A DNA stretch of 38,263 nt from Candidatus Desulfatibia vada. GTDB lineage: Bacteria > Desulfobacterota > Desulfobacteria > Desulfobacterales > UBA11574. The position numbers were made by a program, and so were the translations under genes. Below are positions 14,775 through 32,547 of the stretch, one piece after another. Under the pieces are notes generated by a model that had not been told where the DNA came from, ran no database searches, and saw only the letters and a list, made by a program, of their open reading frames with translations. The stretch covers positions 1-38,263 of the forward strand of contig JACNIG010000093.1 of the NCBI GenBank assembly GCA_014383215.1, given 5' to 3'. The stretch's first letter is position 1. Each line of letters opens with the position of its first letter.

Positions 14775-16133
14775 TTAGCTCAACCCCAGGCGTTTCATCT
14801 TGCGCCAGAGGGTTGTTCGGGGAATTTTGAGGATTTGAGCGGCGAGCCCTTTTTGATAATTGGTTTTAATCAACACCTGCCGGATATACTCACGTTCCTT
14901 TTTTTCCAGGGAAGGCCAGTCTTCTGAACTGTTAGCGGCAAACCGTTGCAGATCCGGCGGCAAATCGTGGGGGCTTATGATGGATTCATCGGCCAGGGCG
15001 ACGGCGCGTTCGATAATGTTTTCCAGTTCACGCACGTTGCCGGGGAAGGGGTAGTTTAATAGCACCTCCATGGTATTCGGCGCCAACCCTTTTACTTTTT
15101 TAGAAAAAGCCTGGGTGTATTTGGCCAGAAAGTGACGCACAAGCAGAGGAACATCTTCTTTTCTGTCTCGCAGTGGAGGCAGAGTGATACAGACAACGTT
15201 GAGACGGTAGAAAAGGTCTTCCCGGAATGTTTGGTTGGTCACTGCTTCGGCAAGGTCCTGGTTGCTGGCGGCAATGATGCGAGCGTCCACCTGAATTGGT
15301 TTTACACTACCAACCCGCAGCAAGTTCCTTTCCTGGATAAACCGCAGCAGCTTGACCTGCATGCTTGTCGGCATTGCGCTTATTTCATCCAGGAATACGG
15401 TACCCATATGGGCCGCCTCCAAAAGTCCGATTTTGGTGCCTGCGGCTCCGGTGAAGGCCCCCTTTTCGTGACCGAAAAGTTCATTAGCAATGAGTTCTTC
15501 GGTAAAACCGCCACAGTTGAACGACATGAAAGGCTGATCCCGCCGCGACCCCTGGAGATGGATGGCGCGTGCGACCAGCTCCTTGCCGATCCCGCTTTCA
15601 CCATGTATCAGCACATTGCAAAGCAGGGGTGCCACTTTATCAATCAGATGGAAGACCTCTTGCATCAGATGGCTCTGCCCGATGATCCTCGGGTGGCGAG
15701 ATTGGGAATCGAGGGCTTTTTTCAGAGCCTCCTTTTCCTTCACCAGGCACACTTTTTCGATGGCCCTTGCGGCCAGTGCCCTGATTTCATTCATTTTGAC
15801 CGGTTTGGTCACGTAATGGAACGCTCCGGCCTGTATAGCTTCAATGGCCGTATCTATGGAACTGTAGCCGGTAATGATGATGACCTCGGTCTGAGGAAAG
15901 CGGTCTTTTATGGTCTTGAGCACGTCCAGGCCGCTCTGATCCCGAAGCATCAAATCACACAGCACTAAATCGAAGGGAATTTGGCTCAGCCTATTGAGGG
16001 CCGGTTCTCCGGCCAGAAATGTTTCTACCAGATAACGGTCCTTTTCCAGCCCTCGCTTGATTTCCCGGCAGACAATAGCTTCGTCGTCGACAACAGCGAC
16101 CCGGTGGGTTTTCTTCTCGTCATCACCACTCAT
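14775..16133 (-). CDS. Sigma54-dependent response regulator (NtrC family), pair with the kinase at 16123
   Basis: 452 residues from ATG 16133, chosen over a start 26 codons earlier because CAGGAAT precedes it and the conserved receiver begins ten residues later (RVAVVDDEA). Phospho-acceptor Asp60 is in LVLCDLML; the receiver continues with ITGYSS and TKPVKM. AAA+ motifs: GESGIGKE, the intact GAFTGA loop in GHEKGAFTGAAG, and FLDE. The C-terminal Fis-type helix-turn-helix is GLAAQILKIPRTTLWRKMKR. It overlaps the kinase gene by 11 nt, so they are coupled and cognate. It could act on the sigma54-type site 14521-14536, which lies only 240 nt downstream of its own stop codon. Confidence 0.92.
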   Translation of the reverse strand: MSGDDEKKTHRVAVVDDEAIVCREIKRGLEKDRYLVETFLAGEPALNRLSQIPFDLVLCDLMLRDQSGLDVLKTIKDRFPQTEVIIITGYSSIDTAIEAIQAGAFHYVTKPVKMNEIRALAARAIEKVCLVKEKEALKKALDSQSRHPRIIGQSHLMQEVFHLIDKVAPLLCNVLIHGESGIGKELVARAIHLQGSRRDQPFMSFNCGGFTEELIANELFGHEKGAFTGAAGTKIGLLEAAHMGTVFLDEISAMPTSMQVKLLRFIQERNLLRVGSVKPIQVDARIIAASNQDLAEAVTNQTFREDLFYRLNVVCITLPPLRDRKEDVPLLVRHFLAKYTQAFSKKVKGLAPNTMEVLLNYPFPGNVRELENIIERAVALADESIISPHDLPPDLQRFAANSSEDWPSLEKKEREYIRQVLIKTNYQKGLAAQILKIPRTTLWRKMKRLGLS

Positions 16134-17568
16134 TTTTAATTCCTGCAGGGATATAGATTGAAAAACGCGTACCCTGGCCGAGTGTACTCTCGACTTCGAT
16201 TCGTCCCCCATGCTTTTTTATAATGCTGTAGCTGACCGAGAGCCCCAAACCGGTGCCTTCACCTTCCTTCTTGGTTGTGAAGAAAGGATCAAAAATGCTG
16301 TTCAATTGGTCGGCGGGAATCCCCTCGCCGGTATCCTCAACATCTATCCGCACTTCTTTCAAGGAATCGCTGAGTCGCGTCAATACCTTGAGTTCTCCGC
16401 CCCCGGGCATGGCCTGGATGCTGTTAATGAACAGGTTAAGCAGGACCTGCTGAATACCGCTGCGGTCAAGGTTCATCGTAGGGATTCCGTCCTCTATCTT
16501 TTTAGAGAACTTGATGTTGTGCAGGTGCAGTTCATTCTTGACAAGACGTACTGTTTTGTCCACGATTTCATCAATGGAGATATTTTCCATTTTAGGATGG
16601 CTGGCGCGGGAAAACTCGAGCAGGTTCTTTACGGTTTCGCTGGCCCGGTCGGTCTGAGCCATGGCTTCCTGGAAAAGACGCAGCCGCTCGTCTCTGCCCA
16701 TTGTCATTCCGTCTTCGACCAGGGACTCTAATATCAGGGATATGTTATTGATAGGATTGTTGAGTTCGTGGGCTATTCCCGAGGTTAAGGTTCCTACGGC
16801 GGCGATCTTGCGAGACTGCACCAGTTGTTCCTGGCGGCTCTCCAACTCGCCCATCATATGGTTGACCGCGGAAACCAGCCGGTGGATCTCATTTCCAGGC
16901 TTTCCAAAGGGGGTAATTCTCAGATACGCCCCCCTGGTAATCTGTTCGGACTCCCTGGTAATACGCGCTAGGGGACGGATGATTACGTCAGTGATAAAAA
17001 AGACGACAAAGACTAAAAGGAGTATCAAGATCCCCAGGTTAATTACCGGTAATGGCACCATTCGCTGCAGCCGGCGGTTGACCTCCCGACGTTCGGTGCT
17101 GACTAACTGGTCGGCAAAGAGAAGGAGGTCCTGACTCATTCTGCGGATTTTGGACTGGAGTTCGAGGCAGCAGCCCTCCTTCCAGGGAGTCTTTCTCAAC
17201 TCCTCCATAAGCTGGGTGTACTCACCGACATATCTTAAGAAGCGTCTGTAGTTCTTATCCCCGATAGCATCAATAAGGTTGGTTTTCTCTCTGGAGAGCA
17301 TCATGGTCAGGCGATTGGTGAATGTCAGGTTCTCCTCATAACTGAACGCCTCCCGGGAAAGGAAGTAATTCTTTTCATAACGCCGCATTTCCGTGATGGT
17401 GTTGTTGATGTCTCCGGATAGCTCAAAGAACTGCATCGCCCCGGTGAGACGGTGGAAATTGCCGTAATTAACGGTAATCATAATCGCCATAAAAAGGAAG
17501 CATGCCGAGAAAGCCATGATTACCTGGCTGCGAATTGTCTTGGGAAGAAACGGCAATCTGCTTAGCAT
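16123..17568 (-). CDS. Sensor histidine kinase, HAMP type
   Basis: 481 residues. Membrane helices at ~15-34 and ~173-195 flank a helical periplasmic domain containing EMRRYEKNYFLSRE. HAMP (~195-248) leads to HisKA with GIAHELNNPINNIS (His267). The ATPase boxes are NLFINSIQAM, DTGEGI, DPFFTTKKEGEGTGLGLSVS. It is paralogous to the kinase at 19064-20470, which shares the same RRYEKN(Y/F)FL sensor motif and order. TAGGAGAAA precedes the ATG at 17568. It is coupled to the downstream regulator by an 11-nt overlap. The sensor motif resembles four-helix-bundle sensors, but the ligand is unknown. Confidence 0.92.
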   Translation of the reverse strand: MLSRLPFLPKTIRSQVIMAFSACFLFMAIMITVNYGNFHRLTGAMQFFELSGDINNTITEMRRYEKNYFLSREAFSYEENLTFTNRLTMMLSREKTNLIDAIGDKNYRRFLRYVGEYTQLMEELRKTPWKEGCCLELQSKIRRMSQDLLLFADQLVSTERREVNRRLQRMVPLPVINLGILILLLVFVVFFITDVIIRPLARITRESEQITRGAYLRITPFGKPGNEIHRLVSAVNHMMGELESRQEQLVQSRKIAAVGTLTSGIAHELNNPINNISLILESLVEDGMTMGRDERLRLFQEAMAQTDRASETVKNLLEFSRASHPKMENISIDEIVDKTVRLVKNELHLHNIKFSKKIEDGIPTMNLDRSGIQQVLLNLFINSIQAMPGGGELKVLTRLSDSLKEVRIDVEDTGEGIPADQLNSIFDPFFTTKKEGEGTGLGLSVSYSIIKKHGGRIEVESTLGQGTRFSIYIPAGIKNEW

Positions 17569-17652: not shown

Positions 17653-19026
17653 TCAGGAATCTTGGGGCTCAATCCCGTACCGCTTGATTTTTCTCCACAG
17701 GGAAACCCGATCAATACCCATAATTTTGGCTGCTTTGGTTTTATTGCCCGCGCACTTTTCGAGTACCCACTGGATATATTTTTTTTCCTGCTCTTCCAGG
17801 GTGGGAATTTCGGAAGAAGCCCGGCGGTAGATTTCAATGGAAAGATTATGGAAATTTTCCGGAAGGTCGTCCGGGCGGATGCAGGTGCCGTTTTCCAGAG
17901 CCACAGCTCTTTCAATGACATTCTCCAGCTCCCTGACATTGCCGGGCCAGCTGTATTGGCAGAGTAAATCCAGACACTCTCTGTCGATGTTGTGGATTTC
18001 CTTGCCCATGGCCTGACTTTTTTGGGCCAGAAAATGGTGGACCAGCAAGGGAATATCTCCGTTGCGATCCGTCAAGGGAGGCGCATTAATAGTAATCACA
18101 TTGAGACGGTAATAAAGATCCTGGCGGAAATGCCCTTTTTCCACATCTTCCTTGAGATCGCGATGGGTGGCAGCGATAAAGCGTACATCCACAGGCACAG
18201 GATTCTCTCCGCCAACCGGCAAGACCTCTCTTTCCTGAATGACGCGCAGCAGTTTGACCTGCATGCTCAACGGCATATCGCCGATTTCATCTAAAAAAAC
18301 GGTCCCTCCGTCGGCCATCTTAATCAACCCGGCTTTGACTTTGGTGGCCCCGGTGAAGGCATCTTTTTCATGGCCGAAAAGCTCATTGGCCATGAGTTCT
18401 TCGGTAAAAGAGCCGCAATTAAAAGCGATGAACTTATTTTCGGAACGGGGACTAAGATTATGGATGGCTCTGGCTACCAGCTCCTTGCCGGTCCCGCTTT
18501 CACCTAATATCAGGACATTGATATCCGCGGGCGCGATTTGACGAATGGTATTCTTTACAGTCACCATGGCCTCGCTTCTACCCACGATAAAAGGAATCTG
18601 CTGATGCTTTTTGAGGATATCCCGAAGTTCCATATTTTCCAGCCAAAGCTTGCGCTTTAGAAGCGCTTCCCGGGCAATCTTACGGACTTCGTCGATTTTA
18701 TACGGTTTGGCGATGTAGTAATAGGCACCTTCCCGCATGGCTTGTACTGACGACTCCACGGTGGCGTACCCGGTAATCATGATCACTTCGGTATAGGGCT
18801 GAAGCTCTTTGGTTTTTCGCAAGACCTGCATACCGTCCACCTGTTTCATTTTTAGATCCGTGATGACCAGATCAAAACTTTGTGATTTAAGCAAATCAAG
18901 CGCCTTGGCACCGCTGTCCACCGCTATGACATCATATCCTTCTTTTAAAAGGATATGCTCCAGGTTTTTGCGGGAGATCTCCTCGTCTTCTACAACAATA
19001 ATTTTTTCTTTAACCTGCCCCAACAC
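17653..19026 (-). CDS. Sigma54-dependent response regulator with DAFTGA variant loop
   Basis: 457 residues. Receiver: VVEDEE, Asp57 in LVITDLKMKQVDG, MITGYAT, AKPYKI. AAA+: GESGTGKE, FLDEIGD. The sigma54-contact loop reads DAFTGA (GHEKDAFTGATK); the first Gly of GAFTGA is Asp, while the critical Thr is kept. HTH: NKTKAAKIMGIDRVSLWRKI. The start is GTG at 19026, or the TTG just after it; AGAGGAT lies immediately upstream and does not decide between them. Its receiver is the closest in the window to the receiver inside the Lon-type protease (NLEH...[35 protein letters not shown]). It follows the kinase at 19064 by 37 nt. Confidence 0.9.
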   Translation of the reverse strand: MLGQVKEKIIVVEDEEISRKNLEHILLKEGYDVIAVDSGAKALDLLKSQSFDLVITDLKMKQVDGMQVLRKTKELQPYTEVIMITGYATVESSVQAMREGAYYYIAKPYKIDEVRKIAREALLKRKLWLENMELRDILKKHQQIPFIVGRSEAMVTVKNTIRQIAPADINVLILGESGTGKELVARAIHNLSPRSENKFIAFNCGSFTEELMANELFGHEKDAFTGATKVKAGLIKMADGGTVFLDEIGDMPLSMQVKLLRVIQEREVLPVGGENPVPVDVRFIAATHRDLKEDVEKGHFRQDLYYRLNVITINAPPLTDRNGDIPLLVHHFLAQKSQAMGKEIHNIDRECLDLLCQYSWPGNVRELENVIERAVALENGTCIRPDDLPENFHNLSIEIYRRASSEIPTLEEQEKKYIQWVLEKCAGNKTKAAKIMGIDRVSLWRKIKRYGIEPQDS

Positions 19027-19063: not shown

Positions 19064-20470
19064 TTAAATACGGGTTGGCAAAAATATAGTAAATGTTGCG
19101 CCTTCACCTTCCTTGCTGGTGACTTGTATGCGGCCTCCGTGCAGCTCAATAATACCGTAAATGATAGAAAGCCCCAATCCCGAACCTTTGCCTACCTCTT
19201 TTGTGGAAAAAAATGGGTCGAATATTTTTGATATATTCTCTTCGGAGATACCACAACCGGTATCCTGAACCTGGAAACTAAACTCTTCTTTATTATTCTG
19301 TTTAGCACTGACGCTCAAAGTCCCCCCTGATTCCATGGCCTGGACCGCGTTAAGCATGAGGTTGATCAGGACGCTTTGCATGCGGCCGGGATCTAAATCT
19401 ATCTGAATATCCTCCGGCACCTGCACCTTAAGTTTGACATGGGCCGGAACTTGTCTTTTGATCGCATGGACGGCTTCATTGACCAGGTCAAGAAAATTGA
19501 TTGTTTTAATTTTGAGAGCGCGTTCTCGAGAGAATTCCAGCAGCGCTCGAACGATATTTCGGGCCCGATCCACCTCTTTTTCCGTGCCGGTCAAAAGCTC
19601 CATTTTGTATTCCAGATTATTTTCTTCTATTTCTTCCAGCAGGATCTGGACGGACGTGGAAATATTATTGAGCGGGTTATTCAATTCATGGGCCACCCCG
19701 GAGGTTAATCTCCCCAGAGACTCCAGCTTTCTGGCCTGAACGAGTTCTTCATTGCGCTTGTTCAGTTCATTGATCATATTGTTCAGGCTGTCGACCAGAT
19801 ATTCAAATTCATCTCCTGTGGATATGTCGGGGATGTTCTTGAAATCGCCTTTGGAGATTTTTTTTATGGCATTTTCAATCGCTTTTAAGGGCCGGTTGAC
19901 ATTAAAGATTAAGAAAAGGGCGATCAGTATGGATAGAATAAAAACGGGTACCAGGGCGATATAATGAATCGTTTTGGTTTTTCCAACCAGATCTTGAGTG
20001 AACTGGCCCTCTTTTTTAACGATTTTTTCCAGTTCGGTGGTTATTTTGTGGCCCTGCTGCTGAATAAATATGGTGGTTTCCCGGGGGATCAATAAGGTAC
20101 CGTTGTTTTGCAGCTCCAATAGCTCTAAGAGCGATTTTTTATATGCTTTCAGTTCGATCAACCGTTCGGGGAGATTTTTAGCCAGTGTATACTTGCCGTA
20201 TTCAGATGTAATATTACTTAAAATATCCTCGGCTTCATGAATATAATCGAGTGCTTGATCAATATTCTTTTTGTCCAGAGACAAAAAAAAGTTTTTTTCG
20301 TATCGGCGGGCTTCCAGGATAGTGTTAAATAGACTGTTTTTTCTTTCTATGATCTGGAGTTTTTGATGGAGAACGTACTGGCTGTAATAGCTTCGAAACC
20401 ATATGATGGCGCTGATGCCGATAAATATCGCAAATGATAGAATGATTTTTTGTCTGATACTGATTTTCAT
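19064..20470 (-). CDS. Sensor histidine kinase, HAMP type (paralogue of the one at 16123)
   Basis: 468 residues. Membrane helices ~9-26 and ~170-190 surround a helical sensor containing EARRYEKNFFLSLD. HAMP (~191-244) is followed by HisKA with SGVAHELNNPLNNIS (His261) and ATPase boxes NLMLNAVQAM, DTGCGI, DPFFSTKEVGKGSGLGLSII. The shared sensor signature with the next kinase indicates duplication of a whole kinase-regulator pair. It lies between the DASS transporter gene and its cognate regulator, all on one strand, so transport and sensing of one anion is a reasonable inference. The ribosome site is weak (CAGGAA 12 nt upstream of the ATG). Confidence 0.92.
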   Translation of the reverse strand: MKISIRQKIILSFAIFIGISAIIWFRSYYSQYVLHQKLQIIERKNSLFNTILEARRYEKNFFLSLDKKNIDQALDYIHEAEDILSNITSEYGKYTLAKNLPERLIELKAYKKSLLELLELQNNGTLLIPRETTIFIQQQGHKITTELEKIVKKEGQFTQDLVGKTKTIHYIALVPVFILSILIALFLIFNVNRPLKAIENAIKKISKGDFKNIPDISTGDEFEYLVDSLNNMINELNKRNEELVQARKLESLGRLTSGVAHELNNPLNNISTSVQILLEEIEENNLEYKMELLTGTEKEVDRARNIVRALLEFSRERALKIKTINFLDLVNEAVHAIKRQVPAHVKLKVQVPEDIQIDLDPGRMQSVLINLMLNAVQAMESGGTLSVSAKQNNKEEFSFQVQDTGCGISEENISKIFDPFFSTKEVGKGSGLGLSIIYGIIELHGGRIQVTSKEGEGATFTIFLPTRI

Positions 20471-20568: not shown

Positions 20569-22383
20569 TTATTGAATACCGTAAAAGAAATAGAGAATGG
20601 TCAGTTCCACGGCCAAAAAGAGCACCGTCATAATAATACCCGCCTTGGCATAATCCACCGTACGATAGCCGCCCGGTCTCATGATCAAGGCGTTTACCTG
20701 GTGGGTCGGCAAAACAAACGTATTGGAGGCCGACAATCCCACGACCAGAGCAGCCATACGGGGATCTCCGCCGGCCATGACCGCCATGTTCATGCACAGA
20801 GGAACCAGCAGGACCGTGGCGCCCACATTGGAGACCACCAGGGTGAAAAAGGAGGTCATAATGCCGACTGCAGCCAAAAGCACAATGGGTGAAGGCTGAC
20901 CTATTAATCCTAAAACAAACTTGGCAATAAAGGCCGCCGTTCCGGTTTTCTCAAAGGCCATGCCCAGGGGAATCAGTCCGGCCAGCAGAAAAACGGTCAT
21001 CCAGTCCACGGCGTAGTATGCTTCATCCACGGAAAGGACCCCGGTGATGATCATCCCCAGAGCCCCTGACATTAACGCCACCGAAAGCTGGGTCTTGAAG
21101 ACTAAAATCTGCAGCAGGGCCACCGCCAGCCACGCAATGGCCAGTTTGGCCTTTTCCGGCCGCATAATTTCGCCTTCCAGGGCCGTGGCAAAAGAGAGTG
21201 CCCGCGGCTGCGGTTTGTTCCTTAGAATATGAAATTTTTCCCAGGGTCCGTACAGCAGCAGGGTATCGCCCATTCTCAGCCGGATATGGGTAAGGCCGCT
21301 GTAAAAAACCTTGTTGCCGGTATACAGGGCTACAGGGTTTACTTCGTAGTGTTCCTTAAAATTGACTTCACTCATGGTTTTGCCGATCAATTCCGATCGG
21401 GGCGAAACAACCGTCTCTGCCATGCCGGCATTGGTCATGGAAAGGCCTTCGGCAAACTCGTCCAGGCCGTCCTTGATCTCCCAGCCGTATTCCTCGGCCA
21501 GTTTGCGGACCTTTCTTTCTTTACCGATCACGGCAAGGTCATCGCCGGCTGAAATCATATCGGTACTGCGCGGAGTAAAGTTTTTCTGTTTTTTTTCGGC
21601 AAAATTGACGGCGACCACGGTCACCAAAAATTTTAGTCTGACGGCCAACTCCTCCAGGCTTCTGGGACCTTGAAAACTGTCGGGAACGTGCAGTTCAAAC
21701 ATATTTTCAACCCCCTGATACTCGTCCATCAACATGGCGGTGACGCCTTCGTCGTCTGCGCCTTCCGCCGCCGGCAGGACCAATTTGCCGAAAACGAGAA
21801 AGTATATAATCGCCGAGAAGAGTAAGCAGATACCGATGGGCGTCTGGGTAAAGAGCCCGAAGGGTTCCAGTTTTTCACCGCCCAATATCATCAGATCGTT
21901 CAACAAAATGGTGGGACTGGCTCCCACTAGGGTGATGGTGCCGCCGATGATGGCGCAAAATCCCATAGGCATCAGGATGCGTGATATGGGAACCCCCATT
22001 CTCTTGGCGATGCGTTGGGCCGCGGGCAGAAACAATGCCGCCGCCCCGATATTCTGCATCATACTGGAGATTATTCCAACGGTGCCGGATATCAGTGTAA
22101 TCACTTTCTTTTCACTGTTGCCGGCCAGCTTGATGATGGGCCCGGCCACTTTGTTCATCACCCCGGTCTTATCCAGCCCGGCTCCGATGATAATGACGGC
22201 AATGATGGAGCAGACGGCGTTACTGCTCAGGCCGACAAAGGCCTCTTTGGGCGATACAAGCCCGATCAACGGCAGCATAACCATCATGATAATACCGACA
22301 ACATCGACCCTTACCCACTCAAAAATAAAAAGAACAATCGCAAAAACCAGTACGATCATGGTCAAAATCATCTCAGGTGTCAT
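20569..22383 (-). CDS. DASS/SLC13-family anion transporter with TrkA-C (RCK_C) domains
   Basis: 604 residues. Two membrane halves, ~1-205 and ~400-604, carry the SLC13 signatures (AGLDKTGVMNKVAG, IIGGTITLVGASPTILLNDL, NVGATVLLVPLCMNMAVMAG). Between them, ~225-395, lie two soluble TrkA-C-like domains (LKFLVTVVAVNFAEKK...GDDLAVIGKERKV and RSELIGKTMSEVNFKEHYEV...GDTLLLYGP). This architecture is common for bacterial sulfate or dicarboxylate uptake proteins; in sulfate reducers DASS members are known candidate sulfate importers. The exact substrate is unproven. It leads the minus-strand block, preceded by a 29-codon membrane-peptide gene and followed by the kinase at 19064. Confidence 0.9.
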   Translation of the reverse strand: MTPEMILTMIVLVFAIVLFIFEWVRVDVVGIIMMVMLPLIGLVSPKEAFVGLSSNAVCSIIAVIIIGAGLDKTGVMNKVAGPIIKLAGNSEKKVITLISGTVGIISSMMQNIGAAALFLPAAQRIAKRMGVPISRILMPMGFCAIIGGTITLVGASPTILLNDLMILGGEKLEPFGLFTQTPIGICLLFSAIIYFLVFGKLVLPAAEGADDEGVTAMLMDEYQGVENMFELHVPDSFQGPRSLEELAVRLKFLVTVVAVNFAEKKQKNFTPRSTDMISAGDDLAVIGKERKVRKLAEEYGWEIKDGLDEFAEGLSMTNAGMAETVVSPRSELIGKTMSEVNFKEHYEVNPVALYTGNKVFYSGLTHIRLRMGDTLLLYGPWEKFHILRNKPQPRALSFATALEGEIMRPEKAKLAIAWLAVALLQILVFKTQLSVALMSGALGMIITGVLSVDEAYYAVDWMTVFLLAGLIPLGMAFEKTGTAAFIAKFVLGLIGQPSPIVLLAAVGIMTSFFTLVVSNVGATVLLVPLCMNMAVMAGGDPRMAALVVGLSASNTFVLPTHQVNALIMRPGGYRTVDYAKAGIIMTVLFLAVELTILYFFYGIQ

Positions 22384-23026: not shown

Positions 23027-23584
23027 TTATATTACTGAATAAACAAAGAGTTTTTGCTGCAATCTCTCACCTTGTTCTATGCGGCTGTCAGCCTGTTGTT
23101 CTTGGGATTCAGAAACCACAAAAGCGACCTGACCCAACTCTTTGCAAACGGATTCAATGGCCTCATCAATTTCACTGAACTTGATCATATGGGAAAAGGA
23201 GATTCCTTCCCGGGCTGCCTCTTTTTGAAAAACATCGGCGTTCTTGGTTGCAAGCTCTTGAAAATCCGTGCAAAGCTGATCGCGAGATGAAGAAAACAAT
23301 TTAAACGTATCGCAGGAAAACGGCGCAGTATTTAACGCCACGATCTCATAGGACATTCGTTTGGCCATATCCAGAGCATAATCGATCATCTCTCGCGAGA
23401 AAGTACCCTCCTGCCCAACGACTAAAAGTTTTTCAGTCTTTTTGGATTCGGGTTGCATTTGCAATACTTCCCGGGCATGATCCGATTCTCCTGCTTCGGC
23501 AAACGTAATCGCTTCCTGATACTGGTCCATTTTACCACTGACCCCAAGAACCTTTTGCTTTAGTTTTTCCAAAATACCTGCCAT
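23027..23584 (-). CDS. USP-like protein with N-terminal TFAEAGE motif
   Basis: 185 residues. Residues ~21-43 hold YQEAITFAEAGESDHAREV, an amphipathic helix motif repeated in the two neighbouring genes. After a linker, ~52-185 reads like one USP-type alpha/beta domain (EKLLVVGQEGTFSREMIDYA, YEIVALNTAPFSC, QVAFVVSESQEQ, KLFVYSVI), without the ATP loop. AAGGAGGAG lies just upstream of the ATG at 23584. It is the third gene of an operon fired by the sigma54 promoter at 24393-24408 and ends in a hairpin terminator. The role of the motif is unknown; a shared docking or dimerisation helix is a guess. Confidence 0.7.
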   Translation of the reverse strand: MAGILEKLKQKVLGVSGKMDQYQEAITFAEAGESDHAREVLQMQPESKKTEKLLVVGQEGTFSREMIDYALDMAKRMSYEIVALNTAPFSCDTFKLFSSSRDQLCTDFQELATKNADVFQKEAAREGISFSHMIKFSEIDEAIESVCKELGQVAFVVSESQEQQADSRIEQGERLQQKLFVYSVI

Positions 23585-23634
23585 TTTTTTCTCCTCCTTA
23601 TAATATCAATTTTTTATAAAAAATTTTATCGTCT

Positions 23635-24141
23635 TTAATGCTGGACCACCACAAGCGGAACAGCAAGTTTTTGCATTATTTTTCTGGACACCCCTTGCTG
23701 TTTTTTCACTCCCCGCGTTCCCTTGCGATCTTCCAGAGATGAATCATAAATGGTAAGCACAACGTCACGATGGCGATTGACATAATTAATTATCTCTTTA
23801 GCCGGATTTCCCGTTTTAACGGCAAAATGACACTGAACGCCTGCTTTTTCCGATTCCGGCAACAGCCGGTTGATATTCTCTAACGCCGCTGACATTATTT
23901 CCTTAGCGGTTTCATGTTCGCCGGCTTCGGCAAATGTCGCCGCCACCATGGTGTTTTCGAAATATTTGCGGGCAAACCCAGCACTTTTACGTATGGTTTT
24001 AAGATATTCATTGTACCTGCGCGGGTTGATAACCTGAAAAACACTCAATTCAGCCTTAATCCGCTTGCAAAGTTGCACTGCATAGTCAAATATCTTGTGG
24101 TCGGGACTGATTCCATCTATGGCTAACAGAACTTTCTGCAT
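23635..24141 (-). CDS. USP-family protein with internal TFAEAGE motif
   Basis: 168 residues, a single USP domain: MQKVLLAIDGISPDHKIFDY, LSVFQVINP, GVQCHFAVKTGNPAKEIINY, DVVLTIYDSSLED, KLAVPLVVVQH. Between strand two and strand three, ~residues 66-90, it carries MVAATFAEAGEHETAKEI, the motif also seen in the genes on both sides. The nucleotide loop is degenerate (no G-x2-G-x9-G). It starts 13 nt after the small gene at 24154 and is 50 nt ahead of the gene at 23584, so it is the middle gene of the operon. Confidence 0.75.
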   Translation of the reverse strand: MQKVLLAIDGISPDHKIFDYAVQLCKRIKAELSVFQVINPRRYNEYLKTIRKSAGFARKYFENTMVAATFAEAGEHETAKEIMSAALENINRLLPESEKAGVQCHFAVKTGNPAKEIINYVNRHRDVVLTIYDSSLEDRKGTRGVKKQQGVSRKIMQKLAVPLVVVQH

Positions 24142-24153
24142 GCTTTTATCCCT

Positions 24154-24339
24154 CTACACTCTCAAGTCCGGCCGTTGCTCTTCGCGGCTCGGGGTTCTAA
24201 TTTCGGTTCGTTGCTGCTTTTCCCTCTCCGGTTTATCGTGCAAGATGTCCAGAGCGGTTTCGCTTTCGCCGGCTTGGGCAAAAGTAATCGCCGCCATCCA
24301 CCGGTCAACAGTATTGATCAGGTTCTTGAAACTAAACAT
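24154..24339 (-). CDS. 61-residue protein built around the TFAEAGE motif
   Basis: A short helical protein. FSFKNLINTVDRWMAAITFA continues as QAGESETALDILHD, then a charged tail rich in Glu, Arg and Gln. It is essentially the shared motif with a basic-acidic extension, with no USP domain. AAGGAGG lies upstream of the ATG at 24339. It is the first gene after a consensus sigma54 promoter and is followed by two USP genes carrying the same motif. The function is not known; the arrangement suggests a small partner or regulator of the two USPs. Confidence 0.65.
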   Translation of the reverse strand: MFSFKNLINTVDRWMAAITFAQAGESETALDILHDKPEREKQQRTEIRTPSREEQRPDLRV

Positions 24340-24392: not shown

Positions 24393-24408
24393 AGCAAGTT
24401 GCGTGCCA
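24393..24408 (-). promoter_or_regulatory. Consensus-perfect sigma54 promoter
   Basis: On the minus strand TGGCACGCAACTTGCT matches TGGCACG-N4-TTGCW at every fixed position with the correct spacing. The predicted start is at ~24382 and the leader to the ATG at 24339 is ~43 nt. It implies that the small-USP operon is fully dependent on an NtrC-type activator. Confidence 0.85.
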
Positions 24409-24488: not shown

Positions 24489-24591
24489 GTTGCAATTTGC
24501 AATGGTTTTTGCATCTCGGCAAATATTTAATTTAAATTAAAGGTGTTATGATATATTACAGAAACGGTACAGCCACGTTGCATATCGCAAC
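24489..24591. promoter_or_regulatory. Two GTTGC-N5-GCAA(C/T) palindromes, candidate activator sites
   Basis: GTTGCAATTTGCAAT (24489-24503) and GTTGCATATCGCAAC (24577-24591) share half-sites and spacing, 88 bp apart. They lie about 107-121 and 195-209 bp upstream of the predicted sigma54 start, the classical range for an NtrC-family enhancer. They also lie upstream of the divergent protease gene, so they could affect both. Confidence 0.5.
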
Positions 24592-24704: not shown

Positions 24705-26702
24705 ATGGGCTTGTTTAAAAAAGGACCGGACAAAGAACTGCTATCTGAAATAGAAGAATTGAAGCAAGCGGTGATAAACGCAAGCATGCCGGAAGCGGTG
24801 GGAAAAATTGCTTTCAAAGAGATCGCAAGACTTGCGAAAACCAGCCCTTCCAGCGGGGAATATACCATCGGTATTAATTATATCGATTATCTGGTTAGTC
24901 TTCCCTGGATAAGAATGACCGAAGATAACCTTGATATCAGGCGGGCCGAGTCAATTTTAGACAAAGAACATTTTGGACTGTCCGACATCAAGGATCGTAT
25001 TCTGGAACATCTGGCGGTTCGCATATTGAAGATGACCCGCCAGTATAACATCCTGGTTGTGGATGACGAAAAAATGACCCGCCGGAACCTGGAGCATGTT
25101 TTTACAAAAGACGGGTATTTGGTCGCAACTGCCGGCAGCGGTATAGAAGCGCTGGACCTTCTTAAAGAGAACGCCTTTGATGTCGTTGTGACGGACCTCA
25201 AAATGGAAAAGGTCGACGGCATGGATGTTCTGGATCACGCCAAAGCCAAGGATCCCGGTACCGAGGTCATTATAATCACCGGATACGCCACGGTACCGAC
25301 GGCGATAGAAGCCATGAAAAAAGGTTCCTATCACTTTCTGGCCAAACCGTTGAAGCTGAATGAAATCCGGGCCACTATCTCCAAGGCGTTGTTCAAGAAA
25401 AAAGATCGCCTGGAACCCAAAGGCCCCGTGCTTTGCTTTGCCGGTCCTCCCGGTACCGGCAAGACTTCTTTAGGGAAATCCATCGCCCGGAGTCTGGAAC
25501 GAAAATTCGTGCGCATGTCTTTGGCCGGTATGAAGGACGAAGCGGAAATCAGGGGACATCGTAAAAGCTACGTGGGTGCTTTGCCCGGTAGAATTATACA
25601 GGAAGTGCGCCGGGCCGAAACAAGAAATCCGGTTATTATGCTGGATGAAATCGATAAAATCGGTCAGGACTTCAAAGGCGATCCGGCCGCGGCGTTGCTG
25701 GAAGTTTTAGATCCCGAGCAGAATACGCATTTTGTTGATCATTATCTTGATGTTCCTTTTGATCTATCCCGGGTGATGTTTATTGCTACGGCCAACACCA
25801 TCGACCCGATTCCCGGACCGCTGCTGGATCGCCTGGAGGTTATCAACCTTTCAGGGTATACCGAAGAAGAAAAAGAGAATATCGCCTTTAACTATTTAAT
25901 CTCCAGGGAAGTAGAAGAAGCCGGCCTTGCGGATGACCCTCCGGTGTTTACTTCCGAAGCAATTCGCAAGATCATCAGAGGATATACGCGGGAAGCAGGA
26001 CTTAGAAATCTGCAACGACAGATCGCTGCGGTCTGCCGCAAAATTGCCAGAAACACCTTGGCCGGTAAAAGCAAAGACACGTCAAACAGCATCACTCCCG
26101 AGGTGGTGGAACAGCTTCTGGGCCCCAGAAAATTTCATTTTGAAGTTACGGAAGGCAAAGACAGGATCGGTGTTGCCACCGGTCTGGCATGGACCGAAGC
26201 CGGCGGACAGATCATATTCATCGAAGCTGCAAAAATGAAAGGGAACAATAATCTGACCCTGACCGGTTCTCTGGGCGATGTGATGAAAGAATCCGCCCAG
26301 GCGGCCATGAGCTACATCCGCAGCCATACCGAATTATTCAACATCTCTGAAGATATCTTTGATCAGCATGATATCCATATTCACGTTCCGGCCGGGGCCA
26401 TTCCCAAAGACGGCCCCTCTGCGGGTGTGACCATCGCTGTTGCGCTGATCTCTCTGCTGACCGATCGCCCGGTCAGAAGGAATGTGGCGCTGACCGGTGA
26501 ATTGACACTGAGCGGTAGAATCCTGCCGGTAGGTGGTGTCAAAGAAAAGGTTTTGGCGGCACATCGCGCCGGGGTAAAGACGGTAATTTTTCCGGCCAAA
26601 AATGAAGCGGATATCCAGGATATACACCCCGACATCAAAAAAGATCTTAAAATTTATGCCATCGATGAATTACCGGAAATTGTTAATCTGGTTTTAAAGT
26701 AA
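24705..26702 (+). CDS. Lon-type ATP-dependent protease with an inserted response-regulator receiver domain
   Basis: 665 residues. There is no N-terminal LAN substrate-binding domain; residues 1-107 match only the helical segment before the Lon ATPase ([33 protein letters not shown]). A full CheY-like receiver follows (~114-230): acidic pair Asp120/Asp121, phospho-acceptor Asp164 in [12 protein letters not shown], Thr192, Lys214. Then the Lon AAA+ module: Walker A GPPGTGKT (247-254), Walker B IMLDEIDK (311-318). The protease domain has catalytic Ser572 in KDGPSAGVT and Lys615 in [11 protein letters not shown], 43 apart as in E. coli Lon. All catalytic residues are kept, so it should be an active protease whose ATPase may be gated by phosphorylation. 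AGGAG precedes the start. No dedicated kinase is adjacent. Confidence 0.92.
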
Positions 26703-27222: not shown

Positions 27223-27474
27223 ATGGCAAAAGAAAAGAAGGTTGAGGAAGCTAAGCTCGAAGAGGAAGCCAAAGAAGAAAAAAATGGCAAAGAGGTAACA
27301 GTAGAGAAAAAGAAAGAAAAAAAGGCAAAGGCGGAGAAAAAGAAAAAAAAGAAAGACAAGGAAAAGATAAAAGCCAAGAAAAAGGATAAAAAGGAGAAAA
27401 AGAAAAAGAAAGAAAAAAAGGCAAAGGCGGAGAAAAAGAAAAAAGAGAAAAAGAAAGACAAAAAAAAGAAATAA
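27223..27474 (+). CDS. Lysine-rich low-complexity protein
   Basis: 83 residues, more than half Lys, the rest mainly Glu, Ala and Asp (MAKEKKVEEAKLEEEAKEEK at the start). AAAGGAGAG lies upstream of the ATG. The second half contains the unit KKKEKKAKAEKKKK twice, from a 42-nt direct repeat (27307-27348 and 27403-27444, offset 96 nt), so the gene has grown by slippage or duplication. It is probably disordered. Its opening MAKEKK and composition match the N-terminal tail of the PPK2 at 28814. Lysine-rich tails are known polyphosphate-binding surfaces, so a polyphosphate-binding or charge-balancing role is a reasonable but untested inference. Confidence 0.55.
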   Translation: MAKEKKVEEAKLEEEAKEEKNGKEVTVEKKKEKKAKAEKKKKKKDKEKIKAKKKDKKEKKKKKEKKAKAEKKKKEKKKDKKKK

Positions 27475-27476
27475 AA

Positions 27477-27494
27477 CAGCCTTTAAAAAGGCTG
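27477..27494. other. Short hairpin after the lysine-rich gene
   Basis: CAGCCTTT / AAAGGCTG, an 8-bp perfect stem separated by two bases, directly after the stop codon. There is no U-run on the plus strand; on the minus strand it is followed by TTTTATTT. No convincing gene is seen in 27495-27676. Confidence 0.35.
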
Positions 27495-27676
27495 CCTGTC
27501 AAAGCTGATGGCGATCTCTAAGACGACCCATGCCTGGAGCACTCCCGTTGGAAAATGTATCGGCCTATTTCATCTGACCTGCTAATACCGGAATTCATCA
27601 TTGAGAAAGGCGATCAGCGGCTGACAGATACGATTAATATTCGAAAAGATATTGAACTATAAGTCTGGGATCAGCC

Positions 27677-28762
27677 ATGAAAAACAAGAAGGAAGACAAG
27701 CAAAAGATACGGGGAAAAAGAGTCGGCGATTTGAAAGCACCTGGGAAAGGTATGGTGAAGAAATCCGAATCGAAATCCAGTTCGGCCGGCCATGACAAAC
27801 AGAATAGAAAAGAAAAGAGATCGGTAAAGCGGATAAATGGTCCCACGGCGCAACATAAAGGCGCTGAGAACAAAGTCGATTCGAAATTCAAATACGCCGA
27901 TTCTAAAAAGCAGGTTCTAAAGATCCCGAAGCTTTCCAAAAAGAAAGAAAAAGAAGGAATCATCAAGGGAGCATTGGAAAAACATTACTGTGCAGAAGAG
28001 TTGCAACCTTACCAGGCGGAATTGATCAAGATGCAGCGCCATCTGGAAAATACAGGAAAAAAAATGGTCGTTCTTTTCGACGGCCGAGATGCCTCCGGCA
28101 AAGGCGGAACGATTCGCCGGATAGTACGCTATATGAATGAGAAAAGGTATCGGGTGGTTGCCCTGGGCAAACCAAATGAGCAACAAAAAACCGAGCTCCA
28201 TATCAAACGCTATATCGAGCACTTCCCCCATGCCGGAGAGATCGTTTTGTTTGACAGGAGCTGGTACAACAGAGCCTTGGTTGAGTCGGTGATGGGATTT
28301 TGTACCAAGGCTCAATATAAGCGATTTATGAAGAAGGTCATTATTTACGAACAAAATTTCCTCGAAGATGCCGGCAAAACCATACTGATTAAGCTCTATT
28401 TTTCGGTGACCAAGGACGAACAGAATAGGCGATTTAAAAGGAGAAAGAACGATCCTCTACGGCAATGGAAACTTTCCGAAGTGGACCTGCAGGCCCAGGA
28501 ATTATGGAATGAATTTACCATAAAAAAATTTATGTTATTGAAAAAAACCCATACAAAAAAATCGCCATGGTGGGTGATTCGATCGGACAATAAGCATCTG
28601 GCCCGACGGGAAACCATGAAGTTGATTCTTAATTCTGGACGATATAAAGGAAGAAGCCGTAAACTCAATTTCATACCGGATTCGGCTATCGTTATACCGG
28701 GCGACAAAGAATTAAAAGAAATGAAAAAGCAGCGCAAAAAACATGGTAGATTCCTGGCATGA
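27677..28762 (+). CDS. ppk2: Polyphosphate kinase 2 family enzyme with long basic N-terminal tail
   Basis: 361 residues. About the first 95 are a basic, disordered, lysine-rich tail (LSKKKEKEGI at its end). The PPK2 core follows: Walker A in FDGRDASGKGGTIRRIV, Walker B-like region VLFDRSWYNRALVESVMGFC, and the lid FKRRKNDPLRQWKLSEVD. PPK2 enzymes transfer phosphate between polyphosphate and nucleoside mono- or diphosphates; which class this is cannot be decided here. The tail is unusual, as most PPK2 proteins begin close to the core. It is paralogous to the next gene, 51 nt downstream. No strong ribosome site is visible (GGGAT before the ATG). Confidence 0.9.
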   Translation: MKNKKEDKQKIRGKRVGDLKAPGKGMVKKSESKSSSAGHDKQNRKEKRSVKRINGPTAQHKGAENKVDSKFKYADSKKQVLKIPKLSKKKEKEGIIKGALEKHYCAEELQPYQAELIKMQRHLENTGKKMVVLFDGRDASGKGGTIRRIVRYMNEKRYRVVALGKPNEQQKTELHIKRYIEHFPHAGEIVLFDRSWYNRALVESVMGFCTKAQYKRFMKKVIIYEQNFLEDAGKTILIKLYFSVTKDEQNRRFKRRKNDPLRQWKLSEVDLQAQELWNEFTIKKFMLLKKTHTKKSPWWVIRSDNKHLARRETMKLILNSGRYKGRSRKLNFIPDSAIVIPGDKELKEMKKQRKKHGRFLA

Positions 28763-28768
28763 TTATCG

Positions 28769-28794
28769 ATCATTTTAAAGCTTAAATGATTTTT
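28769..28794 (+). terminator. Weak AT-rich hairpin with T4
   Basis: ATCATTT / AAATGAT stem followed by TTTT, between the two PPK2 genes. It is possibly an attenuator; being short and AT-rich, it is weak. Confidence 0.3.
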
Positions 28795-28813
28795 GTATAA
28801 ATAAGGGGGCCAG

Positions 28814-29740
28814 ATGGCAAAAGAAAAAAAGAAAAAGAAATCAAAGGAGAAAGGCAAGAAAAAAGAAAAAAAGCTAAAGAAGAGCTTGACCGAACACACC
28901 AGTTTTAAAAATTTAAATAAGAAAAAAACAAAAACCCGCCAGGCCGTTTGGGTAAAAAAATTCACCCTTGAATATGAAGAAGAGCTGAACAGGCTTCAGA
29001 TCGAACTTTTAAAATGGCAAAAACATGTCATTGCCAACGAGGACCGCATTTTGTTGTTATTTGAAGGGCGGGATGCCGCTGGAAAAGGCGGCACGATCAA
29101 AAGGATTCTCGAACATTTGAACCCACGGGGTGCCCGGGTTGTTGCTCTTTTAAAGCCCAGCGACAGGGAACGAACCCAGTGGTATTTTCAAAGGTATATC
29201 CATCAACTCCCCTCCGGCGGAGAAATTGTACTGTTCGACCGCAGCTGGTACAATCGCGCCATGGTAGAGCCAACAATGGGTTTCTGTACCGATGAAGAAA
29301 ATAAGCGCTTTTTAAAAGACACCCCAATGCTTGAGTCCATGCTGGTTAAGAACGGAATTATTCTGTTCAAGTTCTTTTTCTCTGTTTCTAAAGAGGAGCA
29401 GTTGCGCCGGTTTAATGCGAGAGAGACGGACCCATTGAAGCAGTATAAAATATCGCCGGTTGACAGAGAGGCTCAGGAAAAATGGGATGATTACACTGTA
29501 AGAAAGTTCCAGATGCTCAATGAAACCAACCGAACGATTTCTCCCTGGACGATTATCCGTTCCGATAACAAGAAAAAGGCAAGGCTCAACTGTCTCAGGC
29601 ATATTCTGTCCAATGTCGAGTATAAAGGTAAGATCTCCCAAGAAGAACTCCAACCCGATCCTGAGATCGTGGTATCGGGCATTGATGAAATCAGGTTCAT
29701 GGAAGATCATCTCATGACGGGCGTTGAACTGCCCGGATAA
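28814..29740 (+). CDS. ppk2: Polyphosphate kinase 2 family enzyme, lysine-rich N-terminus
   Basis: 308 residues. Residues 1-~42 are a lysine-rich tail (MAKEKKKKKSKEKGKKKEKK). The PPK2 core carries Walker A in FEGRDAAGKGGTIKRIL, EIVLFDRSWYNRAMVEPTMG, and lid FNARETDPLKQYKISPVDRE. It has the usual PPK2 core length. AAGGGGG precedes the ATG. With the upstream PPK2 it forms a tandem pair that shares core motifs but differs in tail length and in lid residues, so the pair may differ in nucleotide preference or in the direction of phosphate transfer. That assignment needs biochemistry. Confidence 0.92.
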   Translation: MAKEKKKKKSKEKGKKKEKKLKKSLTEHTSFKNLNKKKTKTRQAVWVKKFTLEYEEELNRLQIELLKWQKHVIANEDRILLLFEGRDAAGKGGTIKRILEHLNPRGARVVALLKPSDRERTQWYFQRYIHQLPSGGEIVLFDRSWYNRAMVEPTMGFCTDEENKRFLKDTPMLESMLVKNGIILFKFFFSVSKEEQLRRFNARETDPLKQYKISPVDREAQEKWDDYTVRKFQMLNETNRTISPWTIIRSDNKKKARLNCLRHILSNVEYKGKISQEELQPDPEIVVSGIDEIRFMEDHLMTGVELPG

Positions 29741-29747
29741 CTGGTGA

Positions 29748-29776
29748 TTGACCGAAAACTCTGTATTTTCGGTCAA
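29748..29776. other. Strong hairpin after the second PPK2 gene
   Basis: TTGACCGAAAA (29748-29758) / TTTTCGGTCAA (29766-29776), an 11-bp perfect stem with a 7-nt loop, just after the stop codon. The following bases are A-rich rather than T-rich, so it may be a 3'-end stabiliser or a non-canonical terminator. Confidence 0.5.
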
Positions 29777-29891
29777 AAATACAAAATTCGGATTTTGCGT
29801 GAACATGGCTTTTCGCTCAAGCAATAACGATGATGTCTGGTGCGGCTCGGTTCAACCAAGCAAAATGATCTTAATTCAAAAGGAGAGATAG

Positions 29892-30185
29892 ATGCCTGTT
29901 CAAATTATGATCAAGCGTAAATGGCAAGTCAATAAGCCGGAAGACCTCCTGCCGCTTCTCGCGGAATTACGCTCCCGGGCAAAAGAGCAAGCCGGATATA
30001 TTTCCAGTGAAACATTAAGAAACCTTGATGACCCCGATGAGTTTTTGGTCATAAGCAGGTGGGAGACGGCCGACGACTGGAAGAAATGGTTTCACAGCAA
30101 GGAGAAAAGAGATATTCAAGGCAAGGTGGATTCTCTTATCGGAGAAAAAACTTTTTACGATATCTTTGAGACCGTAAGTCACTGA
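29892..30185 (+). CDS. ABM-fold (antibiotic biosynthesis monooxygenase-like) small protein
   Basis: 97 residues with the ferredoxin-like ABM pattern: MPVQIMIKRKWQV, LRSRAKEQAGYISSETLRNL, DPDEFLVISRWETADDWKKW. Typical members are small dimeric monooxygenases or haem-degrading/stress proteins. The Trp-containing ISRWETADDWKKW helix is the best family marker. AAAAGGAGAG lies before the ATG. It stands as the last plus-strand gene of the block, convergent with the phosphoesterase gene. Substrate unknown. Confidence 0.75.
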   Translation: MPVQIMIKRKWQVNKPEDLLPLLAELRSRAKEQAGYISSETLRNLDDPDEFLVISRWETADDWKKWFHSKEKRDIQGKVDSLIGEKTFYDIFETVSH

Positions 30186-30253
30186 TCCGAAATTTATGAG
30201 AAGCTCGGGCCAACGGACGGCACCCTACACCGTTTCCACGTTAATCGTTCCTG

Positions 30254-30976
30254 TTAATTTAATTTCTTTCCTGTACGGTACATTTTTGCATAAACATCCG
30301 GCAGACGGCTCTTTTTCAACCCCGTGATCACCTCTTCCACCGGATAGGGGATGCGCAAATGTTCTACGGCTATTTTGCCTGAAAAAATCTTAAGAATGGC
30401 AAAAGACGCCCGCGGATCTCCGTCAAACATGCGTCCCGCACTGCCCGGATTGATAAAATGAACCCCATCGATAATTTTATAATAGGGTGTATGAGAATGG
30501 CCCATGATATGAACTTGGTAGCGAGAACTCTTTGCCAGTTCACGAAAGCGGGTTTCAGGGGTGCTTGGAAACAGGATTTCATCCTTATCATCGAGGGTTC
30601 CATGGAATAGGCCGACATGGATATTGTCTATGGTAAAATCGGCTTGTCTGGGTAATGATTTCAAGTACTTAACATTTTCCGGAAGTAAGTTTTCAGATGT
30701 CCAGAAGTACATGACCCGCTTTTCTTCTTTTTTGGGCCTTTTTAATTTCTTACCTTTTAAGATTCTCAATATGCGCCTGTCCGTATTCCCCAATATGCAG
30801 ACAGATTTTTTCCTTTTCCGGAACCACTGGATCGTTTCGTTGGGAAATGTACTGTAAACAGTAAAGTCACCCGTGTTAATAATCCGATCGAACCGGTATG
30901 CCCGGACATAGCTTTGTATCGCTTTTAATGCCGGATAATTGGCGTGAATATCACCCAGTACAAGTATTTTTTTCAT
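30254..30976 (-). CDS. YfcE/MJ0936-type metallophosphoesterase
   Basis: 240 residues with the full calcineurin-like metal site in order: GDIHANYPA (D-x-H), NTGDFTVYS (GD), ILGNTDRRI (GN-x-D), GLFHGTLDD (H), IMGHSHTPYY (GH-x-H). MJ0936/YfcE relatives hydrolyse phosphodiesters or phosphomonoesters with two divalent metals. It is a soluble enzyme. It lies last in a minus-strand run with CYTH, CHAD and SixA genes, which all handle phosphate esters or polyphosphate, so a role there is plausible though not shown. Confidence 0.85.
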   Translation of the reverse strand: MKKILVLGDIHANYPALKAIQSYVRAYRFDRIINTGDFTVYSTFPNETIQWFRKRKKSVCILGNTDRRILRILKGKKLKRPKKEEKRVMYFWTSENLLPENVKYLKSLPRQADFTIDNIHVGLFHGTLDDKDEILFPSTPETRFRELAKSSRYQVHIMGHSHTPYYKIIDGVHFINPGSAGRMFDGDPRASFAILKIFSGKIAVEHLRIPYPVEEVITGLKKSRLPDVYAKMYRTGKKLN

Positions 30977-31054
30977 TAGGCAGAGCGGTCGTAACTGCGG
31001 CTGTGTCAGCGAGAGGCCTTATTTATGGATTAACGGAAGCGGGCTTGCCGACAT

Positions 31055-31630
31055 TCAGGAAGTAATATCCCTTATCATTTTGGAAAATGATTGAATTTTC
31101 TTGGTTAATTCTTTGTATTTCTTTTTTTTCGGTTTTTTCCCGATTTTTTTCAATGTTAAAGTAAGGGCATCGGTTTTCTTAATGATATTTTTCTTGACCT
31201 TTTTGGGAAGGTCCTCTTGACTTTTACCCAGTGTTTTAAGGCGGGCTTTCAGCTTGGTCGATCGTTTCTTAAAATCAATATATAATTCCAGATATTTCTT
31301 TTCCCACAAAGGCTTTAAATCTTCATTTACCCGGCTTAAACTCTTATTAAGCCATTTAATCTTTTTCTGCAAATCCCGGTTGATCTCCTCGATTTTTCTT
31401 TCTTTGGCAGATATGGTCTCACCGGGCAATTTTTTCTGTTTTTCCCTATAATATTCAGTCACAGAGATCTTGATCAGCTTGGCATAATGTGCGCCGATCG
31501 ATTTGATCTCGGCCAGTTTTTCCAACGGCATTTCATAAAGCTGCTTTATGGTTGTAATGCCAAAATCGTTTAGCAATTGCATGCGAGTGACTCCGACATG
31601 CTTCAACTGGGTTAGATCATTCTGTTTCAT
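31055..31630 (-). CDS. HhH-domain coiled-coil protein
   Basis: 191 residues. Residues ~1-60 form a helix-hairpin-helix-like module (LKHVGVTRMQLLNDFGITTI, then EKLAEIKSIGAHYAKLI). From ~65 to the end the protein is a Lys/Glu-rich coiled coil (ERKIEEINRDLQKKIKWLNK). HhH modules generally bind DNA or other proteins. AAAGGGG precedes the ATG at 31630. It follows the CYTH gene by 99 nt, a gap with a 7-bp hairpin (GCCCTCT/AGAGGGC, 31651-31668). The basic tail is again notable beside polyphosphate enzymes. The function is not known. Confidence 0.65.
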   Translation of the reverse strand: MKQNDLTQLKHVGVTRMQLLNDFGITTIKQLYEMPLEKLAEIKSIGAHYAKLIKISVTEYYREKQKKLPGETISAKERKIEEINRDLQKKIKWLNKSLSRVNEDLKPLWEKKYLELYIDFKKRSTKLKARLKTLGKSQEDLPKKVKKNIIKKTDALTLTLKKIGKKPKKKKYKELTKKIQSFSKMIRDITS

Positions 31631-31729
31631 AATAATCCCCTTTCAGCGTCGCCCTCTCTGTAGAGGGCAATGGTGTTATCTAATTGAACCGTATCAATTT
31701 ATCATTTCTTTCTTTTCGGCTTTCTCATC

Positions 31730-32191
31730 TTACCACCTGCAGTAAGGATGGTGAATCAGATTTGCATTGAAGTACCTCGGGTCTCCAGTCACTTCCTCAC
31801 CGATCCATTCAGGTTTTTCGAATTTTTGGTCTTCACTTTCAAGCTCCACCTCGGCCACGATCAATCCTTGGTTTTCACCGCAAAACTCGTCGACCTCCCA
31901 GACGAATCCTTTGTAGGCGATTTTGCACCTCATCTTTTCGATGAGAGGTTTTTCGCACAGGTCATCCAGCATGGCTTCAGCTTCTACCCCGGGGATTTCA
32001 TATTCGTACTCAGCCCGGACAGCTCCCCGAGAGATACCCTTGACGGTTAAATATCCTTTGTCACCAATAATGCGCACACGCACAGTTCTTTCTTTAATGC
32101 TGTTTAAATAACCCTGGCGATACATCACTCCTTGCTCTTTACGCCAGGCACTGTTGTTTACCAGGAATTTTCTTTCAATTTCCAGGGCCAT
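31730..32191 (-). CDS. CYTH-domain (triphosphate tunnel) protein
   Basis: 153 residues from the ATG at 32191, preferred to the GTG two codons earlier because GAGGT lies at a better distance. The signature ExExK is present in EIERKFLV, followed by the tunnel strands: RQGYLNSIKERTVRVRIIGD, KGYLTVKGISRGAVRAEYEY, CKIAYKGFVWEVDEF, LIVAEVELESEDQ, the last two with the usual acidic and basic ligands. Family members are inorganic triphosphatases, thiamine triphosphatases or adenylate cyclases. Stand-alone bacterial forms of this length are usually triphosphatases. It is on the same strand as, and downstream of, the ParA and CHAD genes, from which a palindromic element now separates it. Confidence 0.88.
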   Translation of the reverse strand: MALEIERKFLVNNSAWRKEQGVMYRQGYLNSIKERTVRVRIIGDKGYLTVKGISRGAVRAEYEYEIPGVEAEAMLDDLCEKPLIEKMRCKIAYKGFVWEVDEFCGENQGLIVAEVELESEDQKFEKPEWIGEEVTGDPRYFNANLIHHPYCRW

Positions 32192-32225
32192 TGCCACCTC
32201 ATAAAATTTAGCAATATTGCTTTTA

Positions 32226-32529
32226 ACTCAAGTTTCGCACACCAGACTTTAACGATGCGCTTTACTCGTAAAGGTTGGATGGTGTTTTTTAAAAGGTAAA
32301 ATATCTCGACAACTGCGCAAAAAGTTATGTTCTCACAATCCAACCAGGCCAGGCGCAACGGCAGCGTTTGTCGAAGTTTTGTATTCTATTCAGTATGATA
32401 AAATGATATTTGATGTCCAGGCGCCGTCAACAAAGCGAAAACGCTCTGTTTATATTTTGCCTTTTAAAAAATATCATCCAACCCTTGGGCGCTAAGGATT
32501 TTGATTTAAATCAGGGTGCGAAACTTGAA
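32226..32529. mobile_element. Palindromic MITE-like element, ~300 bp
   Basis: Perfect 13-bp inverted ends TCAAGTTTCGCAC (32228-32240) and GTGCGAAACTTGA (32516-32528). Further in, GGTTGGATGGTGTTTTTTAA (from ~32273) and the reverse complement of 32447-32478 match over about 32 bp with three differences. The stretches between these two paired regions are exactly 32 nt on both arms. TTTTA flanks both sides (32221-32225 and 32530-32534), a possible 5-bp target duplication. There is no coding capacity. It fills the gap between the ParA and CYTH genes. Confidence 0.75.
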
Positions 32530-32547
32530 TTTTAGATTATTCGAACC

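Follow-up and report, generated by a model that had tools for sequence, protein, structure and literature searches.

The window considered here is the complete stretch of 38,263 nucleotides that was analysed. Three consecutive genes on its minus strand carry the same element of about 25 residues, each in a different context, as a reading of the sequence alone had proposed; we confirm the element in all three genes, with the segments where that reading had put them. P0001 (23027..23584, minus strand; 185 aa; family F3) carries the segment QEAITFAEAGESDHAREVL near its N-terminus, ahead of a USP-like domain (motif copy at 23450..23536, minus strand; profile E=7.7e-14). It reaches only 15.6 bits against the Pfam Usp model, under the cut-off of 24, and is therefore treated as USP-like only. 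P0002 (23635..24141, minus strand; 168 aa) is a universal stress protein (USP) in which the segment VAATFAEAGEHETAKEIM lies within the USP domain, inserted after strand 2 (23887..23970, minus strand; E=1.0e-14). Its family membership is supported by 37.7 bits against Pfam Usp (cut-off 24) and by a Foldseek match to USPs (E=4e-8); modelling predicts the USP core well, and the model fits solved USPs, the top fold match being TeaD of a TRAP transporter. P0003 (24154..24339, minus strand; 61 aa) consists almost entirely of the segment MAAITFAQAGESETALDIL (24229..24315, minus strand; E=9.2e-16) and a charged tail. Pfam and NCBIfam gave no family match for this protein, and its family (F4) recurs as the first gene of the cluster. 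The copies in P0001, P0002 and P0003 share 10-11 of 17 core residues. With gaps of 12 and 50 bases the three genes form an apparent operon, and inspection of the sequence finds a purine-rich, RBS-like stretch before each of them.

Downstream lies an SLC13/DASS-type anion transporter with TrkA_C domains (20569..22383, minus strand; CitMHS, TrkA_C, Na_sulph_symp), whose family F11 is conserved downstream of motif genes. It is followed by a histidine kinase (19064..20470, minus strand; family F1) and a sigma-54-type response regulator, a receiver-AAA-HTH chain by sequence (17653..19026, minus strand; family F0), both conserved neighbours. On the other side a receiver-Lon protease (24705..26702, plus strand; Response_reg, AAA, Lon_lid, Lon_C), the usual neighbour of this cluster type, is divergent from P0003. 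The gap between the two holds a putative sigma-54 -24/-12 promoter upstream of P0003, TGGCACGCAACTTGC (24394..24408, minus strand; the only exact match in the window), and two dyads of the TTGC-GCAA type, GTTGCAATTTGCAAT (24489..24503) and GTTGCATATCGCAAC (24577..24591), which are probable activator sites. Dyads resembling TTGC...GCAA, judged by a loose pattern, occur in the receiver-Lon intergenic gap of 13 of 16 inspected loci.

This arrangement, a receiver-Lon divergent from a USP/anion-transporter operon with a kinase and a sigma-54 regulator, meets the definition of a module of the DVU3298-3305 type. As described in PMC3333781 and PMC10102598, the D. vulgaris module comprises receiver-Lon DVU3303, kinase DVU3304, sigma-54 regulator DVU3305 and the operon DVU3302-3298 with UspA proteins and the anion transporter DVU3299. 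Protease, kinase and regulator show nearly identical fitness patterns and control an anion transporter (PMC10102598). The window has the same components as this three-component stress module (receiver-Lon, USPs, anion transporter, kinase and sigma-54 regulator); it differs in that kinase and regulator stand on the transporter side, and the motif is not described in the passages available from either paper.

Further gene groups lie outside the cluster. Positions 9135-17568 of the window hold a second cluster in the same style without the motif, with USP proteins, a lone receiver, TauE-family-like and cytidylate-kinase-like proteins, then a sigma-54 regulator and a kinase. A polyphosphate-like gene island (27223-35400) includes a lysine-rich ORF (27223-27474) and two PPK2 genes whose N-terminal tails are rich in lysine; CYTH, ParA-like, CHAD and histidine-phosphatase genes lie on the opposite strand. 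The genome also encodes a second receiver-Lon, 77% identical to that of the window, at a contig edge that hides its divergent neighbours (G000:C82:161-2140).

Specificity, hosts and distribution of the motif

The core of the motif reads A-x-x-F-A-E-A-G-E-x-x-x-A-x-x-x-L. Searched against the complete genome, a profile (A1) built from 19 rows gave only four strong matches (E 8e-14 to 9e-16), with the next one at 0.008; the fourth copy lies on contig C411 in the C-terminal tail of a single-domain response regulator. Among the open frames of the fetched loci it matched 294 with a score of at least 8 bits, but none after the same frames had been reversed. The motif is thus real and not a chance match. 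The profile search, which the sequence-only reading had itself suggested as a check, matches far more than three genes, so the idea is not refuted on that ground. The other outcome that would have refuted it, the motif as an ordinary helix of known USP structures, was not seen either: the profile matched no solved structure in the PDB, and PDB sequence searches returned no match for P0002 and only spurious ones for P0001. The statement that no name is known for the element also holds. The motif is absent from Pfam and NCBIfam models, from solved structures and from the literature text searched, where its string was not found, but it is built from a known TPR-like unit. USPs encoded with or bound to a transporter are known from TeaD-TeaABC (3hgm) and Rv2623-Rv1747, (PMC5549992); these involve other transporters, and the motif profile, which matches no solved structure, hence does not match those USPs.

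Under the strict profile, 31 of the 192 genomes drawn from the class have the motif, as do 29 of the 247 drawn from the phylum. When named genomes were scanned, it turned up in Desulfobacterota, in Nitrospirota and in a few MAGs that bear the labels Ignavibacteria/Melioribacteraceae, Latescibacterota and Deferribacteres. At least two motif genes, usually neighbouring genes of one cluster, occur in 100 of the 126 fetched loci with a motif. A strict rule that the motif is never alone in a locus fails, as 26 loci show one motif gene, many of them on short contigs. A more sensitive profile finds at least two copies in most apparently singleton genomes and leaves a single copy in only a few (G246, G270, G419).

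The hosts are diverse. They comprise small proteins with one to three copies each; USPs with the motif in one of two positions, inserted after strand 2 or N-terminal; receiver proteins with the motif in the C-terminal tail; a small membrane protein (L135 and relatives) that has the motif at its N-terminus and two apparent transmembrane helices; and a PPDK-like protein, in which the motif is a clean insertion of about 30 residues. The PPDK-like insertions (L147:12649-14652 and L210:3590-6256) fall in the region of the ATP-binding domain, and homologues in L101, L103 and L129 lack the motif. The membrane-protein family (L135:8545-8892, L134:8493-8726), which adjoins TauE transporters and ends in ...SFIHGAFASNLLSSIGIEAKK, has no Pfam or NCBIfam match. 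Many Nitrospirota membrane proteins are without the motif although the USPs encoded with them carry it. Where paired host domains are 17% identical the motif is about 57% identical, a comparison that is inflated because the relatives were found through the motif.

The gene context is conserved as well: two or three adjacent genes usually carry the motif, and next to them stand a histidine kinase, a sigma-54 regulator and an anion transporter of the SLC13 or TauE/SafE type. Type I clusters, to which the window belongs, have a receiver-Lon divergent from the small protein, the USP with the inner motif, the USP-like protein with the N-terminal motif, an SLC13-type transporter, a kinase and a sigma-54 regulator. 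Type II clusters contain a kinase, a sigma-54 regulator, a kinase-like protein, a protein with one or two motifs, two motif-tailed receivers, a CBS protein and a sodium:sulfate-symporter-type transporter. A Nitro_FeMo-Co domain protein stands between sigma-54 regulator and kinase at L107:6270-6626 and, as family F13, in other type II loci. In Nitrospirota and Desulfobulbales a TauE/SafE transporter and a tandem USP follow the motif genes. By gene content, without a sequence comparison, these TauE clusters resemble D. vulgaris DVU0542-0545, which encodes a pair of USPs, a putative sulfate exporter and a protein of 133 residues containing a transmembrane helix (PMC10102598).

The co-occurrence of motif and receiver-Lon that the sequence-only reading had suggested looking for is real in the cluster type of the window. 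In the phylum draw of 247 genomes, 17 have both, 9 only the receiver-Lon, 12 only the motif and 209 neither (odds ratio 33, p=1e-12); the class draw gives an odds ratio of 12 (p=8e-9). Both p-values are inflated by the relatedness of the genomes. Of the 17 genomes that have both, 16 show a motif within 6 kb of the receiver-Lon, and all 17 do when the sensitive profile is used.

A probable TPR-like fold

Judged from its sequence, which is only TPR-like and stays below the Pfam TPR cut-offs, the motif is a single TPR-like two-helix hairpin, because it aligns with positions 8-24 of the TPR and some copies recur at intervals of 34 residues. When 249 copies are aligned on the F, they agree with the TPR consensus in having A at position 8, F at 11, G at 15, A at 20 and L/M at 24; the conservation figures are upper bounds, as the windows were preselected on the core pattern. 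The spacing of tandem motifs is exactly 34 residues in L101, L142, L159 and L177, and 38-53 in other multi-copy proteins. The best Pfam matches of a three-copy protein are TPR_4, TPR_6 and TPR_14, all below cut-off (TPR_4 with 23.2 bits against 27), and P0003 matched none of the Pfam TPR models. The insert of P0002 is modelled as a helix-turn-helix with low to moderate confidence (pLDDT about 40-80). In an AlphaFold model of a double motif the packing of the hairpins is unresolved (pTM 0.42); among its top 50 Foldseek matches almost all are TPR/PPR proteins, though with E near 1.

The motif shares with the TPR hairpin the register 8, 11, 15, 20, 24, the 34-residue spacing of some tandems and, in models of no more than moderate confidence, the helix-turn-helix, yet it differs in usually occurring once per chain and in scoring below the TPR cut-offs. 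Most motif proteins are single-copy (range 1-3), so that a solenoid, which takes at least three tandem hairpins, is not formed by this criterion. The two kinds of surface differ as well. In ordinary TPRs positions 2, 5, 9, 12, 13, 33 and 34 are the most variable and contact different ligands (PMC1261162), whereas positions 9, 12 and 13 of the motif are conserved in all carriers, in part an effect of window choice, and the surface positions 12 and 13 are near-invariant. Such conservation is expected if all motif copies touch the same kind of partner. The motif has charged residues at positions 3 and 21, which usually belong to the stacking face of TPRs (PMC5074805), and this makes ordinary solenoid stacking unlikely. 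Lone TPR-like hairpins in non-repeat proteins have been described in RPS20, Tom20 and the MIT domain (PMC5074805); these, in contrast to the motif, are not a mobile module common to the genes of one operon.

Fused carriers and a proposed assembly clip

At two loci (L224, L225) the orthologues of P0002 and P0001 form one chain. There the insert motif, about 35 residues, is cleanly absent, the N-terminal motif is absent too, and no small motif gene was found. At other receiver-Lon loci a USP without the motif is fused to the two-helix membrane protein. The membrane protein was searched in two even genome draws, as free loci fetched via the motif would bias a comparison of fused and free states. 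Fused to a USP it was found in 23 cases, none with a motif within 1.5 kb, while the free protein has a motif nearby in 13 of 15 cases (Fisher p=1.9e-8). In 4 of these 13 the motif is a weak match inside the membrane protein itself (9-15 bits), confirmed by the sensitive profile with E 3e-6 to 2e-11. In one fused case (G411) motif genes lie some 6 kb off, and one family (f68) includes both the fused and the free state. The related genomes behind these counts are not independent, and the fused loci, which may be derived or ancestral, may represent a sister subfamily instead of cases of motif loss. By the usual reasoning on gene fusions, mutual exclusion of fusion and motif suggests that the carriers physically associate, the motif replacing a covalent link.

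The sequence-only reading had inferred a common partner or mutual binding. No binding has been measured; the evidence nevertheless favours that inference, because the hosts are unrelated, the insertion is clean, the motif is conserved above its hosts and it is absent where carriers are fused. We go one step further and suggest that the motif is probably a detachable, non-covalent assembly clip for a complex of stress response and anion transport, since it recurs in unrelated proteins beside anion-transporter genes and is missing where its carriers are fused. The clip would hold soluble regulators (USPs, small adaptors and receiver proteins) together; in related operons it would also tie them to the two-helix membrane protein whose gene adjoins that of the transporter. 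In the window, P0001, P0002 and P0003 would probably be co-expressed from the sigma-54 promoter under the neighbouring kinase and regulator, and we predict that they assemble into a single complex that would modulate the SLC13-type transporter. The hairpins would gather nucleotide-binding USPs, receivers and adaptors, and the membrane protein, or the hairpins directly, would place them at the anion transporter; any effect on the transporter is inferred, as is physical binding itself. Against the clip stand the Nitrospirota membrane proteins without the motif, the few single-copy genomes, and a sequence that is no more than TPR-like with hairpin packing unresolved.

Whether motif meets motif or a common receptor is likewise a matter of inference. 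That most motif genomes keep at least two copies slightly favours mutual binding, while lone motifs on receiver proteins argue for a receptor. A wider scheme, which we offer only tentatively, is a homotypic module, not described before, with one hairpin per chain; it would build a regulatory complex of USPs, receivers, adaptors and a membrane subunit at anion transporters in several bacterial phyla, and would allow separate clusters within a cell to share components. Alternatively, the hairpins do not bind each other and each docks on one common receptor as a docking tag, the candidates being the kinase, the transporter or its membrane subunit, and the receiver domain of the receiver-Lon. The conserved ligand-face positions 9, 12 and 13, the occasional lone motif on receiver proteins, and the kinase, sigma-54 regulator and anion transporter that accompany nearly all clusters would fit such docking; but none of these candidates occurs at all motif loci (the membrane protein is missing from type I clusters, the receiver-Lon from type II clusters and many other loci), and most genomes retain two or more carriers. 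We regard docking on one receptor as unlikely, without discarding it.

Quite improbable is the view that the segments have no binding function in common and are merely structural helices of the ordinary kind, or relics left by duplication from a TPR protein. The TPR-like sequence would suit it, and copies within one cluster do look like old duplicates of one element; against it, the motif is conserved above its hosts (with the caveat of how relatives were selected), positions 12 and 13 hardly vary, and the motif is cleanly absent in homologous host folds and when carriers are fused. The suggestion that the motif is a dedicated degradation tag read by the adjacent receiver-Lon, for all its co-occurrence and adjacency with that protease, is unsupported and in our opinion very improbable, because exceptions run both ways (12 of 29 motif genomes without receiver-Lon, 9 of 26 receiver-Lon genomes without a strong motif match, same draw, and many receiver-Lon loci without the motif) and the protease persists beside fused, motif-less USPs, and the position of the motif varies between the start, middle and end of the host.

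Universal stress proteins are widespread, and to our knowledge their mode of action is mostly unknown. If the assembly clip is true, it would provide a testable mechanism tying USPs to receivers, small proteins and transporter subunits, and the exclusion between fusion and motif makes the association of the carriers a sharp and easily tested prediction. The motif would then offer a sequence-based way to identify components of the complex, and it would connect many small genes of sulfate-reducing and related bacteria that lack annotation.
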